Source: Roseivirga thermotolerans (GTDB taxonomy: Bacteria > Bacteroidota > Bacteroidia > Cytophagales > Cyclobacteriaceae). From it: a DNA stretch of 64,000 bases. Position 1 is the stretch's first letter. Every line of letters begins with the position of its first letter. Below are positions 52,202-57,381 of this stretch, piece after piece. Location: NCBI RefSeq assembly GCF_014653175.1, contig NZ_BNAG01000003.1, forward strand, positions 186,001 to 250,000. Reading direction: 5' to 3'. Under the pieces are notes generated by a model, which was given only the letters and a program-made list of their open reading frames with translations, ran no database searches and was not told the origin of the DNA. Both the position numbers and the translations under genes were made by a program.

Positions 52202-53419
52202 TTATTTTTCTAACCTTATTTTGTCCACATGCTCCCAAAAACCAGGGTATGATTTATTCACTACCGAGGGGTTGTGAATGATTATTGGCTGCCGGGTCAT
52301 TATGGGGGCAAAGGCCATAGCCATGCGATGGTCGTCATAGGTTTCAATGGCTATAATCTCTTCACTTGGCTGATACTTCGATTTCACCTCCCAGAAGCCT
52401 TCTTCAACTTCTTTGAGTTTAATTTTAAATTTTTTGAGCTCTTTTTTGAGGGCTTTAATTCGATCTGTTTCTTTGATTCGGAGGCTTTCCAGGCCGGTCA
52501 TGCGGCAGTGGATTCCTTTTATGCCACAAACTACAGCAACCGTTTGTGCAAGATCCGGACAATCAGAGAAATCGAACTCCAACTCTTCCTGATGCGGAAT
52601 TTTCTCCAACACCACCCCATCATCTTCGAAAGTGCTCATTACACCTAACTGGTTCATAATCCGCACAATGGCTATGTCGCCCTGCAGCGACTTCTGCCGT
52701 AGGCCCAGTAGCTTTATTTTAGCCTCATCGGCCAGGGCGACAAAGCTATACCAGTAGCTAGCCCCAGACCAGTCAGACTCTACCATATAAGGGTATTCTC
52801 CGTAGCTCTGTGGAGCAATTTCTATGGTGTTGTTGGTCCAGTTAGACTGTACGCCAAAGAGACGCATCATGTCCAATGTCATCTGAATGTAAGGACGGCT
52901 GCCAATTTTGCCTTTCAGTTCCAGACTAAGCCCTTGGGGCAATGCGGGAGCTATCATCAACAAGGCCGATATAAACTGACTACTCACATCGCCTCTAATA
53001 CTCAATCGATTTGTTTTCTGATGCTCCAGTGGCTTTATGCGCAAAGGAGGAAAACCTTCTTCGTTGAGGTACTTAATTTTGGCACCGAGTTGTTTGAGCG
53101 ATTTGGCCAATATATGAATGGGCCTTTGCTGCATACGTTCGGTGCCCGTAAGTATTTTGGGCTGTTCTCCCAATATAGAATAGGCTGTTAGAAAACGCAT
53201 GGTGGTGCCTGCATCAAGCACATCGAGCGTTGTTTCTTCTGAGCTCAGTAAGCGAAGCATCGTTTGCGTATCTCTGGCATTCGACAGGTTTCTGATTACC
53301 GAACGGTTGCCCGAAATGGCGTTGATTATAAGGGCCCGATTGCTCTCACTTTTAGAAGCCTCAAGAGGTATATCAACTGATTTTAATTTGGGGCTATGTG
53401 GTAGTTTTTTGGTGTCCAA
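52202..53419 (-). CDS. aroA: 3-phosphoshikimate 1-carboxyvinyltransferase (EPSP synthase)
   Basis: A 405-residue enzyme joining PEP to shikimate-3-phosphate, the sixth step of the shikimate pathway. Motifs include EASKSESNRALIINA (about 18-32), LDAGTTMRFLTAYS (about 68-81), GDVSSQFISALLM, LESLRIKETDRIKAL and DDHRMAMAFAP. It is the last gene of the minus-strand aromatic unit, 5 bases after aroB. The length is slightly short of the usual 420-430. Confidence 0.95.
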   Translation of the reverse strand: MDTKKLPHSPKLKSVDIPLEASKSESNRALIINAISGNRSVIRNLSNARDTQTMLRLLSSEETTLDVLDAGTTMRFLTAYSILGEQPKILTGTERMQQRPIHILAKSLKQLGAKIKYLNEEGFPPLRIKPLEHQKTNRLSIRGDVSSQFISALLMIAPALPQGLSLELKGKIGSRPYIQMTLDMMRLFGVQSNWTNNTIEIAPQSYGEYPYMVESDWSGASYWYSFVALADEAKIKLLGLRQKSLQGDIAIVRIMNQLGVMSTFEDDGVVLEKIPHQEELEFDFSDCPDLAQTVAVVCGIKGIHCRMTGLESLRIKETDRIKALKKELKKFKIKLKEVEEGFWEVKSKYQPSEEIIAIETYDDHRMAMAFAPIMTRQPIIIHNPSVVNKSYPGFWEHVDKIRLEK

Positions 53420-53424
53420 GGAGT

Positions 53425-54450
53425 TTAGGTTTTGGAGTAGTAAAACAATGAGTCCATTACATCTTTTTCGTCTACGGCAATATCGTAACCTGCCCGGCCT
53501 ATTTCGTAGAGTAATGAGTGATTGAGGAAGTTGTTGATATTCTTTTTGTCGTGGTACATCAGTTCAATGATGCTTGTAAAATGTCTTTTTTCTATTCTTA
53601 GTTCCGGATAAATACCTTTTAAGGTTTGAGAAATAGTTTTGACAGCACTATCCGATAAACCCAATAATTTACCGGAGAGGTAGCTTTCGCATATCATTCC
53701 TATAGCAATAGCTTCGCCATGGAGTAGCCTGTTTTCTGTGTGCAGGTAGTAGCTTTCAATGGCATGCCCTATGGTGTGGCCAAAGTTCAAGATTTTGCGA
53801 AGACCTCTCTCTTTGGGGTCTTCTTTTACTACCGCATCCTTAATATGAATACTGTGAGCAATTACAGCATTCCAATTCTCTTGCTTAAGCCCTTTTGAAC
53901 TCACCTTTTCAAAATAGTCGGCATCGGCTATTAAACCATGCTTTACCACCTCGGCAAAACCGGATCTAAGTTCGCGTTCGGGCAAAGTTTCCAGAAAAAT
54001 CGGGTCAATGAATACATGCAGTGGATCCTGAAAAAAGCCCAGGTGGTTTTTAAAACCATGAAAATCGATACCCAGTTTACCACCTATGTTGGCATCTACA
54101 GTAGCCAGCAGGGTAGTGGGAATGTTGATAAAGTCGATCCCTCTTTTATAAGCTACGGCACAAAAACCACCCATATCGCCAATTACTCCGCCCCCCAGAT
54201 TAACCAGCAGGGCCTTGCGGTCGAACTGGTGCCTGGTGAGCTCTTTCCATATGTGCTCGCAGGTTTGCAGATTTTTATTTATCTCGCCCGATGCTACCTC
54301 AATAAGTTGATGCTCGGGCAATAATGATTTAATTTTTGGGTAGCAATGAGCCCTTGTGTTTTCATCTACCAAAACAGCAATCTGCGAATGTTTGCTTTGG
54401 TTGAAAAACGAGGGTAGGCTTAAACTGATATCATCGATTTGTATACTCAT
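53425..54450 (-). CDS. aroB: 3-dehydroquinate synthase
   Basis: A 341-residue NAD- and metal-dependent enzyme making the first ring of the shikimate pathway from DAHP. NAD motif LGGGVIGDMGGFCAVAYKRG (about 84-103), INIPTTLLATVDANIGGKLG, and metal ligands in FAEVVKHGLI (Glu) and LNFGHTIGHAIES (His). Its start overlaps the stop of the DAHP synthase gene by 4 bases (ATGA), so the two are coupled. Confidence 0.96.
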   Translation of the reverse strand: MSIQIDDISLSLPSFFNQSKHSQIAVLVDENTRAHCYPKIKSLLPEHQLIEVASGEINKNLQTCEHIWKELTRHQFDRKALLVNLGGGVIGDMGGFCAVAYKRGIDFINIPTTLLATVDANIGGKLGIDFHGFKNHLGFFQDPLHVFIDPIFLETLPERELRSGFAEVVKHGLIADADYFEKVSSKGLKQENWNAVIAHSIHIKDAVVKEDPKERGLRKILNFGHTIGHAIESYYLHTENRLLHGEAIAIGMICESYLSGKLLGLSDSAVKTISQTLKGIYPELRIEKRHFTSIIELMYHDKKNINNFLNHSLLYEIGRAGYDIAVDEKDVMDSLFYYSKT

Positions 54451-55541
54451 ATTTTTACAGAAGTCTTCACTTCTTTGAGCTGTGCTTCCTGCATTTTAAC
54501 TGATTCTTCATGAATGGCAAATAATAAACTTTTCATGAATTTTTCGGTCATGTTTTTCTTCATGCCTGTTCTTATTCTGGACTCCATTACTTCCTGCCAC
54601 CTTCCGGGCTGATATACCGCCAGGTTATGATCTCTTTTGTAATCACCCACTTGCTTTATTATCTGAAACCTATCGGCCAGTAACTCTATGATCTGACCAT
54701 CGAGAAGGTCTATTTTTTGCCGAAGTTGCTCCAGTTCAGTAATAGCCTCGGGATGTTTATCAATGGATTCTCGGAAGTTCAGGTTTTCATAAATGATCTT
54801 CAGCATTTCAGGCGTCACCTGCTGCTTGGCATCGCTCCAGGCCTTATCCGGGTCGTGATGAGTTTCTATCATTAGTCCATCCAATCCAAAATTGATGGCT
54901 CGCTGGCTCACCGATGCTATAATTTCTCTGGTGCCACAAATATGACTTGGGTCGCAAACCACCGAAATGCCCGGCATCATGCGCTTTAAGTGAATGGGCA
55001 TGCTCCATTCAGGTTTGTTTCGGTAACGCTTTTCGTAGGGGTCGGAGAAGCCGCGATGTATGGCCGCTAGTTTTTTAATGCCCACCTTGTTGAGCCTTTC
55101 AAACGCACCCAGCCAAAGCTGCAAGTCGGGGTTAATGGGGTTTTTAACCATTACTGGAATATCTACTCCTTTTAGAGAGTCGCATATTTCTTGCACAGAA
55201 AATGGGTTTACCGTGGTTCTGGCACCAATCCATAACACGTCTACCCCACCTTTAAGGGCGGCTTCTACATGAGCGGTGTTGGCCACCTCTACCGTAACCG
55301 GCACATTGAGTATGTCTTTGGCAATGTTCAGCCACTCCAGGGCATCGGTGCCTATACCCTCAAAAGAACCGGGTCTGGTTCTGGGCTTCCAAACGCCTGC
55401 CCTAAACATTTCCACAGGGCTTCCTTTTAGTCCGCGGGCAATAGCCTCAATTTGTTCGGGGCTTTCTGCGCTGCAAGGTCCGGCTATCAATGTGTGCTCC
55501 GATAGCCCCAACCCCCAGTCTTTGATATCTACAATTTCCAT
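54447..55541 (-). CDS. bifunctional DAHP synthase/chorismate mutase, copy 2 (attenuator-controlled)
   Basis: A 364-residue fusion. Residues 1-about 260 are a type I-beta DAHP synthase, the entry step of the shikimate pathway from PEP and erythrose-4-phosphate: LIAGPCSAESPEQ, FRAGVWKPRTRPGSFEG, WIGARTTVNPF and VVCDPSHICG with the metal and PEP residues present. Residues about 275-364 are an AroQ-type chorismate mutase, ELEQLRQKIDLLDGQIIELL and QVGDYKRDHNLAVYQPGRW. In the Prevotella homologue this fusion gives prephenate feedback. It is 46% to 50% similar by eye to copy 1 in motifs, not measured. Its transcription passes the leader-peptide attenuator at 55550-55680. Confidence 0.93.
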   Translation of the reverse strand: MEIVDIKDWGLGLSEHTLIAGPCSAESPEQIEAIARGLKGSPVEMFRAGVWKPRTRPGSFEGIGTDALEWLNIAKDILNVPVTVEVANTAHVEAALKGGVDVLWIGARTTVNPFSVQEICDSLKGVDIPVMVKNPINPDLQLWLGAFERLNKVGIKKLAAIHRGFSDPYEKRYRNKPEWSMPIHLKRMMPGISVVCDPSHICGTREIIASVSQRAINFGLDGLMIETHHDPDKAWSDAKQQVTPEMLKIIYENLNFRESIDKHPEAITELEQLRQKIDLLDGQIIELLADRFQIIKQVGDYKRDHNLAVYQPGRWQEVMESRIRTGMKKNMTEKFMKSLLFAIHEESVKMQEAQLKEVKTSVKI

Positions 55542-55549
55542 GACTTTTT

Positions 55550-55582
55550 AAAAATAAAAAGCCCGGTTCGTGTGAACCGGGC
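55550..55582 (-). terminator. attenuator terminator before DAHP synthase copy 2
   Basis: Region 3 (55574-55582) and region 4 (55561-55569) form a perfect 9-bp GC-rich stem around a 4-base loop, and on the minus strand run into TTTTTATTTTT (55560-55550). It ends 8 bases before the start codon of the synthase. It can be replaced by the 2:3 pairing with 55617-55624. Confidence 0.93.
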
Positions 55583-55615
55583 CTATGTGATAAGTTAATT
55601 TTTTCTTAATAAGCT

Positions 55616-55624
55616 GCGGTTCAC
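55616..55624 (-). promoter_or_regulatory. antiterminator arm (region 2) of the aromatic attenuator
   Basis: The minus-strand RNA here, GUGAACCGC, overlaps the leader peptide stop codon. Its first 8 bases pair with CGGUUCAC of the terminator's 5' arm (55572-55579), which would prevent the terminator. All nine bases can alternatively pair with leader codons 6-8 (55657-55665, GCGGCUUAC) with one mismatch. Confidence 0.85.
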
Positions 55625-55680
55625 CTCACCTTTTCGATAAAGTAAAAAAAGTAAAAGTAAGCCGCGAACAATGTTTTCAT
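55621..55680 (-). CDS. aromatic leader peptide (attenuation)
   Basis: A 19-residue open frame starting MKTLFAA, then YFYFFYF, then IEKVR and stop. Codons 8-14 are seven aromatic codons in a row (3 Tyr and 4 Phe; a fifth Phe is codon 5), which is typical of amino acid leader peptides such as the pheA leader. A ribosome stalled here would cover region 1 (55657-55665) and free region 2; a ribosome reaching the stop codon would cover region 2 and let the terminator form. No strong Shine-Dalgarno is seen, as elsewhere in this genome. Confidence is high because the peptide and RNA pairing agree. Confidence 0.88.
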   Translation of the reverse strand: MKTLFAAYFYFFYFIEKVR

Positions 55681-55684
55681 GGCC

Positions 55685-55715
55685 TAAACATATTCATCTT
55701 AGTTTTCTAAAGAAA
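55685..55715 (-). promoter_or_regulatory. possible promoter of the attenuator transcript
   Basis: On the minus strand TTTC (55715-55712), 19 bases, then TATGTTTA (55692-55685); each box is one base off consensus with perfect spacing. It would start transcription very near the leader ATG at 55680, giving an almost leaderless peptide. Readthrough from the upstream genes is the alternative. Confidence 0.4.
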
Positions 55716-55725
55716 ACATTATTTG

Positions 55726-55748: not shown

Positions 55749-56288
55749 CTAGGCCCTGATCAAACCAAAAGTGGTGGTGTTATGCTTTTCATCCTGAATG
55801 CCCTCGGCAATAATAAGTAAGCCCTTAGACTCTAAAGCCTCTTTTGAGCTAATAACGGCTGCCTGAGAGTCGCGGCTATTCTTAAGTTCGTCTATGGCTC
55901 CGGCCGTACTCGAGCTGGCAATGAACTTTATATGACTGTATTTAGAAAAGAAATGTGTAGTTTCTTTAATGGCCATGGGGTGCGAAAAAACCTTGCGAAT
56001 GCTCTTTATCGTGTTTGGTTTTAGACTCCCCAAACACAGATTTACAGGCAGCTCAAATTCCTCTATCAATTGAAGCCCTCTTTGGCGTATGGTTTCGAGA
56101 TTATTGCCCACCTGACCGGAGTGTGAGTTTCTGAGGGCAACGAGAGCCTGTTTTATTTGACCATCTTTCAATGCCTTAAAGATGGTTTCAAAGTTTTGAA
56201 AATAGGCAAAACTAAGGTGAGGCAGGAAGCGCTTTCTTGCCAGATCGTGAAAGGTATTTTCCGGACCCAGTAGTCCCAAGTCAGTCAT
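55749..56288 (-). CDS. prephenate dehydratase-like protein without ACT domain
   Basis: A 179-residue protein with the two-lobe prephenate dehydratase catalytic fold but no C-terminal ACT domain (usual length with ACT about 270-290). LGLLGPENTFHDLARKRF replaces GPxGTFS, VALRNSHSGQV replaces VPIENSxxGxV, and the C-terminal HNTTTFGLI has Thr where the catalytic TRF Arg usually lies. So catalysis could be altered or lost; it may also act as a regulatory or chorismate-derived-ligand-binding partner. Its start overlaps copy 1 of the DAHP synthase by 8 bases. Feedback by Phe through ACT is not possible. Confidence 0.78.
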   Translation of the reverse strand: MTDLGLLGPENTFHDLARKRFLPHLSFAYFQNFETIFKALKDGQIKQALVALRNSHSGQVGNNLETIRQRGLQLIEEFELPVNLCLGSLKPNTIKSIRKVFSHPMAIKETTHFFSKYSHIKFIASSSTAGAIDELKNSRDSQAAVISSKEALESKGLLIIAEGIQDEKHNTTTFGLIRA

Positions 56289-57381
56289 TAGGTAAATTTA
56301 GGTTTTGTTCTTTTTTGTTGAACACCTCAGTCTGTGTTTTCACTGACTGTTGGTGTAATAATCTTAACACTTCTACTACAAACTGGCGATCAAGGTTTAG
56401 CTGATCGGCCCATTCTTGTCTCGACTGAAAAATTTCTTTCCAGCGGCTAAGTTGAAAAATGGCTACGTTATTTTCTTTTTTAAACTCACCAATTTTTTCA
56501 ACCAGGTTCATGCGCAGATTCAAAGCCTCCAGCAGTTCCCGGTCGGCCTGATCTATTTGTTCTCGAATGAGCTCCAGTTGGTTAATGATGTTTTCTTTAG
56601 TAAACACATCGTCTCGTAGCAACAAACCATTGATAAGGTCAGGAAGGTTGGCTGTGGCAATTTGCTGGGCGGCATCACTCCAGGCCGCATCAGGTTTGCA
56701 GTGCGACTCAATCATTAGCCCGTCATAGTTGAGGTCTAGCGCTCGTTGGGCAATTTCAGCAACCAGTCCACGATCGCCCGCAATGTGACTGGGGTCACAC
56801 AAGAGTGGTAACTCCGGAAACTCACTCTTCAGATCTAGAGGTATTTGCCACATGGGCACATTTCTGTATTTGTTTTTCTGGTAGCTATGAAAGCCCCGGT
56901 GTATGGCTCCTAGCTTACTTACTCCGGCTTTGGAGAAGCGCTCTAGCGCTCCTTTCCAGAGCGACAGTTCCGCATGAATGGGGTTCTTTATAAAAACGGG
57001 TAGTTCCGAACCCTTAAACGACTCGGCAAGTTCTGCCACATTAAAAGGGTTTACGGTGGTTCGGGCACCAATCCAAACCAAGTCTACTTCATACTGGTGA
57101 GCCAGCTCAACATGTTCGGGAGTAGCTACTTCCATGGCAAATTTAAAAGGAGTCTCCTTTCTAAGGGCTTGTACCCATTGCAATGCGCGTTCGCCATGTC
57201 CTTCAAAATTCCCTGGGCGAGTCCTGGGTTTCCAAATACCACCCCGAACAAAGTCTACCTTATCAATAATAGGGAGAACACTGTTTCTCAGTTGCTCCTC
57301 CGTTTCTACACTGCAAGGGCCTGAAATAAGCAAAGGTTTATTGTATTGAGGGTACCAGTCTTTAAGTTCGCGCACAACCAT
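56281..57381 (-). CDS. bifunctional DAHP synthase/chorismate mutase, copy 1
   Basis: A 366-residue paralogue of the copy at 54447. The DAHP synthase half has LISGPCSVETEEQ, GGIWKPRTRPGNFEG, WIGARTTVNPF, IKNPIHAE, GAIHRGF and LLCDPSHIAG; the chorismate mutase half (about 275-350) has QLELIREQIDQADRELLEAL and EKIGEFKKENNVAIFQLSRW. It lies first in the minus-strand aromatic cluster and overlaps the dehydratase-like gene by 8 bases. The two copies are likely differently regulated: only copy 2 has the attenuator in front. Confidence 0.93.
   Translation of the reverse strand: MVVRELKDWYPQYNKPLLISGPCSVETEEQLRNSVLPIIDKVDFVRGGIWKPRTRPGNFEGHGERALQWVQALRKETPFKFAMEVATPEHVELAHQYEVDLVWIGARTTVNPFNVAELAESFKGSELPVFIKNPIHAELSLWKGALERFSKAGVSKLGAIHRGFHSYQKNKYRNVPMWQIPLDLKSEFPELPLLCDPSHIAGDRGLVAEIAQRALDLNYDGLMIESHCKPDAAWSDAAQQIATANLPDLINGLLLRDDVFTKENIINQLELIREQIDQADRELLEALNLRMNLVEKIGEFKKENNVAIFQLSRWKEIFQSRQEWADQLNLDRQFVVEVLRLLHQQSVKTQTEVFNKKEQNLNLPND

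Follow-up and report, generated by a model that had tools for sequence, protein, structure and literature searches.

A putative leader-peptide attenuator with phenylalanine and tyrosine codons precedes a DAHP synthase-chorismate mutase operon in Roseivirga and related Cyclobacteriaceae

The window analysed here is a stretch of 64,000 nucleotides from Roseivirga thermotolerans, which we take to be a marine member of the Bacteroidota. Its minus strand carries genes for a DAHP synthase-chorismate mutase (CM) fusion, AroB and AroA (Table 1). A sequence-only reading had proposed that they form an operon, and the Pfam and TIGR matches bear this out, with aroA, at 282.7 bits, just below the TIGR01356 cut-off of 287.25. 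The operon makes the amino acids that the leader in front of it would sense. The two genes upstream, also on the minus strand, encode a prephenate dehydratase of 179 residues and a second DAHP synthase-CM. The dehydratase gene ends 68 nt before the leader, so that transcription from upstream is possible. Its product matches the PDT domain almost fully and no second (ACT) domain was found in Pfam at E 0.001, so Phe feedback inhibition of this enzyme may be absent. As judged by eye, the short gap upstream of the DAHP synthase-CM paralogue contains a promoter-like box and no leader ORF.

The leader ORF comprises 19 codons and a TGA stop, and seven aromatic codons follow one another within it; the frame and the run previously described match the sequence base for base. 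This predicted frame is rich in codons for the end-product amino acids of the operon. In the numbering used below, leader nt n is window base 55681-n of the minus strand. Three pairings had been claimed for the RNA, and each was located. Regions 1 and 2 pair at 8 of 9 positions when read by eye, while the best ungapped 1:2 helix found by script joins nt 12-17 with nt 57-62 and is unlike the by-eye helix. Regions 2 and 3 pair at 8 of 8 positions. Regions 3 and 4 form a G+C-rich terminator stem of 9 bp with a 4-nt loop, and 8 nt separate the U run that follows from the synthase ATG. In a 201-nt leader stretch the folding z-score was -4.78, and none of 200 shuffles was equally stable. A scan of the whole window, plus and minus strand, for short ORFs that start with ATG, have six or more aromatic residues in ten and come with a terminator above the score cut-off gave this leader ORF alone. 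No Rfam family matched the leader at its gathering score, Bacteroid-trp (RF01692) gave no match in this search, and a T-box or riboswitch identity was rejected, the T-box model being absent among the Rfam matches.

Table 1. Features of the leader, the operon and its neighbours in the window, and of a second leader in the same genome
Feature	Position	Strand	Remark
Second DAHP synthase-CM gene (paralogue)	56281..57381	-	
Prephenate dehydratase gene	55749..56288	-	
Possible degenerate -33 element TTTTC	55712..55716	-	by eye; mostly TTG in relatives
Sigma-A -7 box TATGTTTA	55685..55692	-	ends 4 nt before leader ATG; predicted TSS 55680
Leader ORF MKTLFAAYFYFFYFIEKVR*	55621..55680	-	predicted leaderless; codon-level constraint among relatives
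Control codons 8-14, YFYFFYF	55639..55659	-	
Region 1, GCGGCTTAC, pairs with region 2 (one mismatch)	55657..55665	-	by eye; 1:2 covariation in relatives
Region 2, GTGAACCGC, holds leader stop codon	55616..55624	-	
Region 3, pairing with region 2 (antiterminator)	55572..55579	-	
Region 3 as terminator 5' arm, GCCCGGTTC	55574..55582	-	
Region 4, terminator 3' arm, GAACCGGGC	55561..55569	-	
U run TTTTTATTTTT	55550..55560	-	T runs of 4-9 in 80/80 leaders
DAHP synthase-CM, regulated gene 1	54447..55541	-	Pfam PF00793 + PF01817; ATG at 55541
aroB, 3-dehydroquinate synthase	53425..54450	-	TIGR01357 above cut-off
aroA, 3-phosphoshikimate 1-carboxyvinyltransferase	52202..53419	-	TIGR01356, E 4.5e-84
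L169, Tyr/His leader and terminator directly before phenylalanine hydroxylase	G000:C2:484301-484432		

A scan of genome contigs yielded 522 relatives for comparison, and the best 80 were kept, mostly from Roseivirga, to which the nearest named relatives belong, and other Cyclobacteriaceae. An aromatic leader ORF and a terminator precede the gene at 79 of these 80 nearest loci, a count that speaks for near kin because farther relatives were not kept. At the remaining locus (L064, from a MAG labelled Spirosoma), no leader ORF lies within the 420 nt searched and the gene start is uncertain. The conserved Phe/Tyr-rich frame that had been predicted is thus present, and this recurrence and the folding score mark the leader RNA as more than a chance structure. 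In the set of 80 leaders, window included, all have at least six aromatic residues in ten and a T run of at least four, which is six or seven long in 68 of them; at two loci (L036, L066) the hairpin and T run were recognised by inspection, having been missed by the terminator finder. These features bear on the possibility that control is translational, with the 3:4 hairpin near the DAHP synthase start hiding the initiation region and stalling opening it. The short distance between the U run of the window and the ATG would suit such a device, but a T run after region 4 in every leader, and a distance from leader stop to gene that varies among relatives, are not expected of a simple occluder, and we regard translational control as improbable.

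Farther afield, a protein search of the phylum gave matches, many of them weak, in 235 of 247 genomes. Among 49 upstream regions chosen from the better matches, 30 contained an aromatic leader with a terminator, against 1/49 in antisense, and 19 contained none. The gene following these 30 leaders encodes prephenate dehydratase (pheA) in 24 cases and a DAHP synthase-CM in four, and had no BLAST match in two; three of the 30 (L088, L130 and L131) are of the same type as the window leader.

Are the aromatic codons maintained as codons? On the DAHP synthase tree, parsimony places 1, 5 and 28 changes at the first, second and third codon positions of an FFYF core, compared with 59, 60 and 84 in codons 2-6 and 69, 76 and 84 in codons core+5 to +9; over the eight codons core-4 to core+3 they number 27, 50 and 80. 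The third-position excess in the core is significant (P = 5.7e-9 against one third, 1.2e-6 against the rate of codons 2-6), though these counts are biased in favour because aromatic patterns served to locate the core, which was chosen for being the most conserved part. Four of its five second-position changes fit a Phe-Tyr exchange. When 56 main-clade leaders were lined up on region 2, which uses no aromatic patterns, three codons of the run (Phe-Tyr-Phe) had 8 of 8 changes at third positions. The third-position bias within the run rules out a U-rich constraint in place of a coding one and, as far as sequence comparison can tell, the aromatic codons are constrained as codons. In the same 56 leaders a Tyr-Cys-Leu stretch past region 2 (leader nt 76-84 in L039, for example) has 19 of 29 changes at third positions and looks conserved as a peptide. 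This stretch could speak for sensing of the nascent peptide or of the free amino acid, as in TnaC-like arrest, rather than of charged tRNA. However, the window leader stops short of it, there is little sign of coding constraint in codons 2-6 or beyond the run, and Phe-Tyr exchange is tolerated within the run, all of which makes arrest of this kind very hard to credit.

The alternative stems were followed in the same leaders. A MAFFT alignment (A1, 49 of the 80 leaders) misplaces region 2 between Roseivirga-type and main-clade leaders; for this reason the 2:3 and 1:2 pairings were tested by swapping partners and not by column counts, and A1 served only for the 3:4 count and for a model, R1, whose sole stem is the terminator. 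With permutations that ignore phylogeny, and relatedness not fully corrected in any of the three statistics, 2:3 pairing scored 13.48 with the leader's own region 3 and 11.04 (sd 0.55) with swapped types (21 types; 0/10,000 permutations); 1:2 pairing scored 15.61 against 13.77 (sd 0.23) in 76 non-redundant leaders (0/10,000), a result repeated in the 22 divergent leaders (0/10,000) and in the 54 remaining ones (0/10,000); and in 3:4, 98.7% of 539 cells were paired in 49 sequences, with two-sided changes at 5 of 11 pairs and in 21 cells, compared with 5.2 in shuffles. The 2:3 advantage is a mean effect: for several types a foreign region 3 scores above the own one, and for some region-3 types the own pairing falls below the mean of foreign pairings. 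Examples of the 1:2 stem are AGCAAC/GTTGCT, AAGCAC/GTGCTT, CGCAGCT/AGCTGCG and GCGCTGTTT/GAGCGGCGC. When the codons were shuffled synonymously, a test that 1:2 passes less clearly, the observed value was matched in 21% of shuffles on average and in 57% for the window. On average, then, the three stems covary as had been anticipated, and the 2:3 antiterminator and the 3:4 terminator are predicted to exclude one another, with 1:2 as a protector stem that is weak for the window alone.

A box of the form TANNTTT[G/A] precedes the leader start with a gap of 4 nt in 68 of the 80 leaders and of 3-8 nt in 78, two (L044, L065) being without an exact box. For three leaders (L018, L029, L033) these counts use an internal ATG, which was chosen as the start in knowledge of the box; if their earlier starts are kept, 66/80 leaders have the box at 4 nt and five have none. 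For comparison, these sequences contain 22,251 ATGs, those of the leaders among them, and the box stands 4 nt ahead of 83; it falls within 8 nt of the start in only 10 of 530 unannotated ORFs, taken from either strand, that are 150 codons or longer. In 70 of the 78 box-bearing leaders the box is itself preceded, at 19-24 nt, by a TTG, against 10.3 expected from shuffles; the window has no TTG at its -33 position. In Flavobacterium psychrophilum the -7 box occupies -12 to -5 relative to the transcription start site (TSS), according to the available part of PMC9723704; on this scale the predicted +1 of the leader is the A of AUG, and we infer a transcript that would begin at or next to it. The same portion of that paper gives leaderless mRNAs as 5.5% of mapped mRNAs, and the accessible part of PMC7366714 puts 5' UTRs shorter than 10 nt at about 3.7% in B. 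thetaiotaomicron.

Could the hairpin simply terminate transcription of the DAHPS2-prephenate dehydratase genes upstream, the aromatic frame being an accident of U-rich sequence? The leader is indeed U-rich and lies behind same-strand genes, but such an origin predicts neither the third-position bias within the run, nor the covariation of the alternative stems, nor the near-fixed distance of the promoter box, nor the aromatic leaders that stand before pheA in other families when the antisense control gives 1/49. The conservation tests argue strongly against it, and we consider it barely plausible. Conserved frame, terminator, covarying stems and codon constraint instead support the attenuation interpretation, and leader and operon very probably belong to the classic trp/phe class of ribosome-mediated transcription attenuators.

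In the mechanism that we infer, transcription from a sigma-A promoter would start at the leader AUG or beside it, and a ribosome would follow RNA polymerase along the leader, translating it. As long as charged tRNA-Phe and tRNA-Tyr are abundant, the ribosome would reach the stop codon in region 2 and hide this region, so that the 3:4 terminator forms and transcription stops before DAHP synthase-CM, aroB and aroA. When Phe or Tyr is short, stalling in YFYFFYF would cover region 1, leave region 2 to pair with region 3 and permit read-through. We modelled these states statically, blocking one assumed ribosome footprint and folding the transcript just past region 3. In this static model the probability of 2:3 pairing, P(2:3), in the window is 0.91 free, 1.00 with the ribosome stalled in the run and 0.00 with it at the stop codon; since the untranslated leader already forms 2:3, the 1:2 stem alone does not enforce termination. 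The 22 divergent leaders, window included, have means of 0.67, 0.89 and 0.00 in these three states, two of them pairing poorly when stalled (L008, 0.08; L016, 0.47), and the 58 main-clade leaders have 0.94, 0.98 and 0.92. The claim that a ribosome at the stop codon masks region 2 consequently holds in the static model for all 22 divergent leaders, the window among them, but not for the main clade on average, whose stop codon mostly lies about 26 nt past region 2, and masking is not supported as a family-wide rule. The window would thus match the textbook scheme, whereas the main clade needs a kinetic account. Stalling raises P(2:3) by more than 0.1 above the free state in only 16 of the 80 leaders in this static model.

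Leader-peptide attenuation is best known from bacteria outside the Bacteroidota. E. coli pheL and trpL share with the Roseivirga leader the four-region logic and the U-run terminator, and differ in that the start of the latter is predicted to be leaderless. In Rfam terms, Trp_leader (RF00513, E. coli trpL) is the best sub-threshold match (E 0.00075; 27.7 of 41 bits), and Phe_leader (RF01859, pheL) reaches 15.8 of 55 bits, below gathering. A DAHP synthase operon in another phylum, aroR-aroF of Corynebacterium glutamicum, was reportedly studied as an attenuator by Neshat in 2014. For this operon, the accessible part of PMC11802643 reports aromatic-leader control, with a Phe-Tyr-Phe leader peptide and ribosome stalling as proposed here, and finds that the availability of Phe, not Tyr, matters; compared with it, the Roseivirga leader has a longer aromatic run and its gene is a DAHP synthase-CM fusion. 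Leaderless geometry also has parallels, as the attenuator RNA of Sinorhizobium meliloti trpL (rnTrpL) has its 5' end at the leader ATG (PMC7298713) and C. glutamicum ilvBNC is likewise discussed as leaderless (PMC11857589); in the portions of these two papers available to us, other amino acids and phyla are concerned and the TSS is reported, whereas it is predicted in Roseivirga.

Within the Bacteroidota, peptide-based attenuation of aromatic genes had been called not well described, a statement that needs qualifying, as it is not wholly undescribed. Bacteroid-trp RNA (RF01692) is listed in Table 1 of PMC2864571 and read as a Trp leader in PMC6414381, as far as the consulted parts of both go. 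Like our leader it comes from Bacteroidota; of 15 loci fetched, seven showed its WWW run, the other eight saying little because minus-strand loci were not reversed; unlike ours it is Trp-specific and, under strict filters, occurs in 17 of 198 phylum genomes, all of one family, and not in the own genome. For F. psychrophilum, the authors of PMC9723704 report strong clues that leader peptides attenuate amino acid operons, and they list new conserved 5' elements for pheA and hisG; the sections consulted mention neither a DAHP synthase leader nor a leaderless leader ORF. A comparative survey of attenuation (Lopatovskaya 2010), cited in the part of PMC4833913 at hand, may hold related predictions.

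The window leader has counterparts elsewhere in the genome. Model R1 matched a second leader, MLFANAYYYHYYHATPARNGSFMF, before the gene at G000:C2:484475, which encodes phenylalanine hydroxylase (PF00351, E 2.1e-44), an enzyme converting Phe to Tyr. The same arrangement occurs in nine relatives, and in the ten family members (gene identified by Pfam in the own genome, by N-terminus elsewhere) the -7 box lies 5 nt before the ATG in 9/10, and at most 10 of 200 shuffles pair regions 2 and 3 equally well in 8/10. Leader matches were found at 8 of 20 phenylalanine hydroxylase regions, of which L193 looks spurious, and at 0/20 in antisense. Counted over their best 10-residue windows, 17 hydroxylase leaders have 75 Tyr, 22 His and 4 Phe (the Phe being spread over 4/17), and the 80 DAHP synthase leaders have 237 Tyr and 388 Phe (with Phe in 80/80); the His codons may supply region 1 pairing. 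In the own genome, trpE is preceded by a Trp leader (L170, MKRTNRNNAWWWHVTELR), with the box 8 nt before its ATG, and the ilv genes (ilvE, by eye, then ilvD) by an Ile/Val leader (L207, MKQLNSIITVVIITGPSG), for which 60 nt of upstream sequence showed no box; both leaders are followed by a hairpin resembling a terminator and by a T run. Leader codons fit the gene: DAHP synthase and pheA have Phe and Tyr, the hydroxylase has Tyr/His and few Phe, and trpE has Trp.

The data do not support a leaderless start for every leader. In 25 pheA-type leaders, some of them from the window's own family, the box stands within 6 nt of the ATG in none, at 7-10 nt in four, at 11-24 nt in seven and farther away in three, and 11 have no box within 150 nt. 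The geometry is therefore not general, and the pheA-type leaders of the same family and the own Ile/Val leader, which lack the box, limit it to three kinds. We see an even chance that Roseivirga and its Cyclobacteriaceae relatives possess several leaderless or near-leaderless attenuators (DAHP synthase, phenylalanine hydroxylase, trp), whose transcripts would start from the AUG or a few bases off it and whose sensing ribosome would load on the nascent 5' end. Codon choice would set the logic, with Phe plus Tyr codons before DAHP synthase, Tyr codons to the near exclusion of Phe before the hydroxylase, and Trp codons before trp.

Three things seem to be new: a DAHP synthase-CM attenuator backed by comparisons, a leaderless geometry predicted for Bacteroidota, and a Tyr leader in front of phenylalanine hydroxylase. 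None of these three points was found in the open literature, subscription papers and supplements lying outside the search; for phenylalanine hydroxylase, leader peptide and tyrosine in particular, the attenuation literature gave a match only for E. coli and C. glutamicum. The locus would provide a Phe/Tyr attenuator with comparative support in Bacteroidota, tied to a wider set of codon-matched leaders, and Tyr-specific attenuation of phenylalanine hydroxylase, if true, would be a new target. The Phe+Tyr leaders (DAHP synthase, pheA) and the Tyr leaders (phenylalanine hydroxylase) would together form a natural experiment on codon specificity. Bacteroidota are, to our knowledge, a phylum without Shine-Dalgarno sequences, and how a ribosome would reach the leader ORF fast enough to control termination without them is a testable question.

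Two further observations were made. Upstream of the own hisG (L171) lies a His-rich frame, MQMILAHFHAHHFHHLS, with a -7 box 7 nt before its ATG and no clear intrinsic terminator. Aromatic leaders also occur at two other loci (L179, L180), where the -7 box stands about 5 nt ahead of the ATG and the gene that follows is, by eye, aminotransferase-like.
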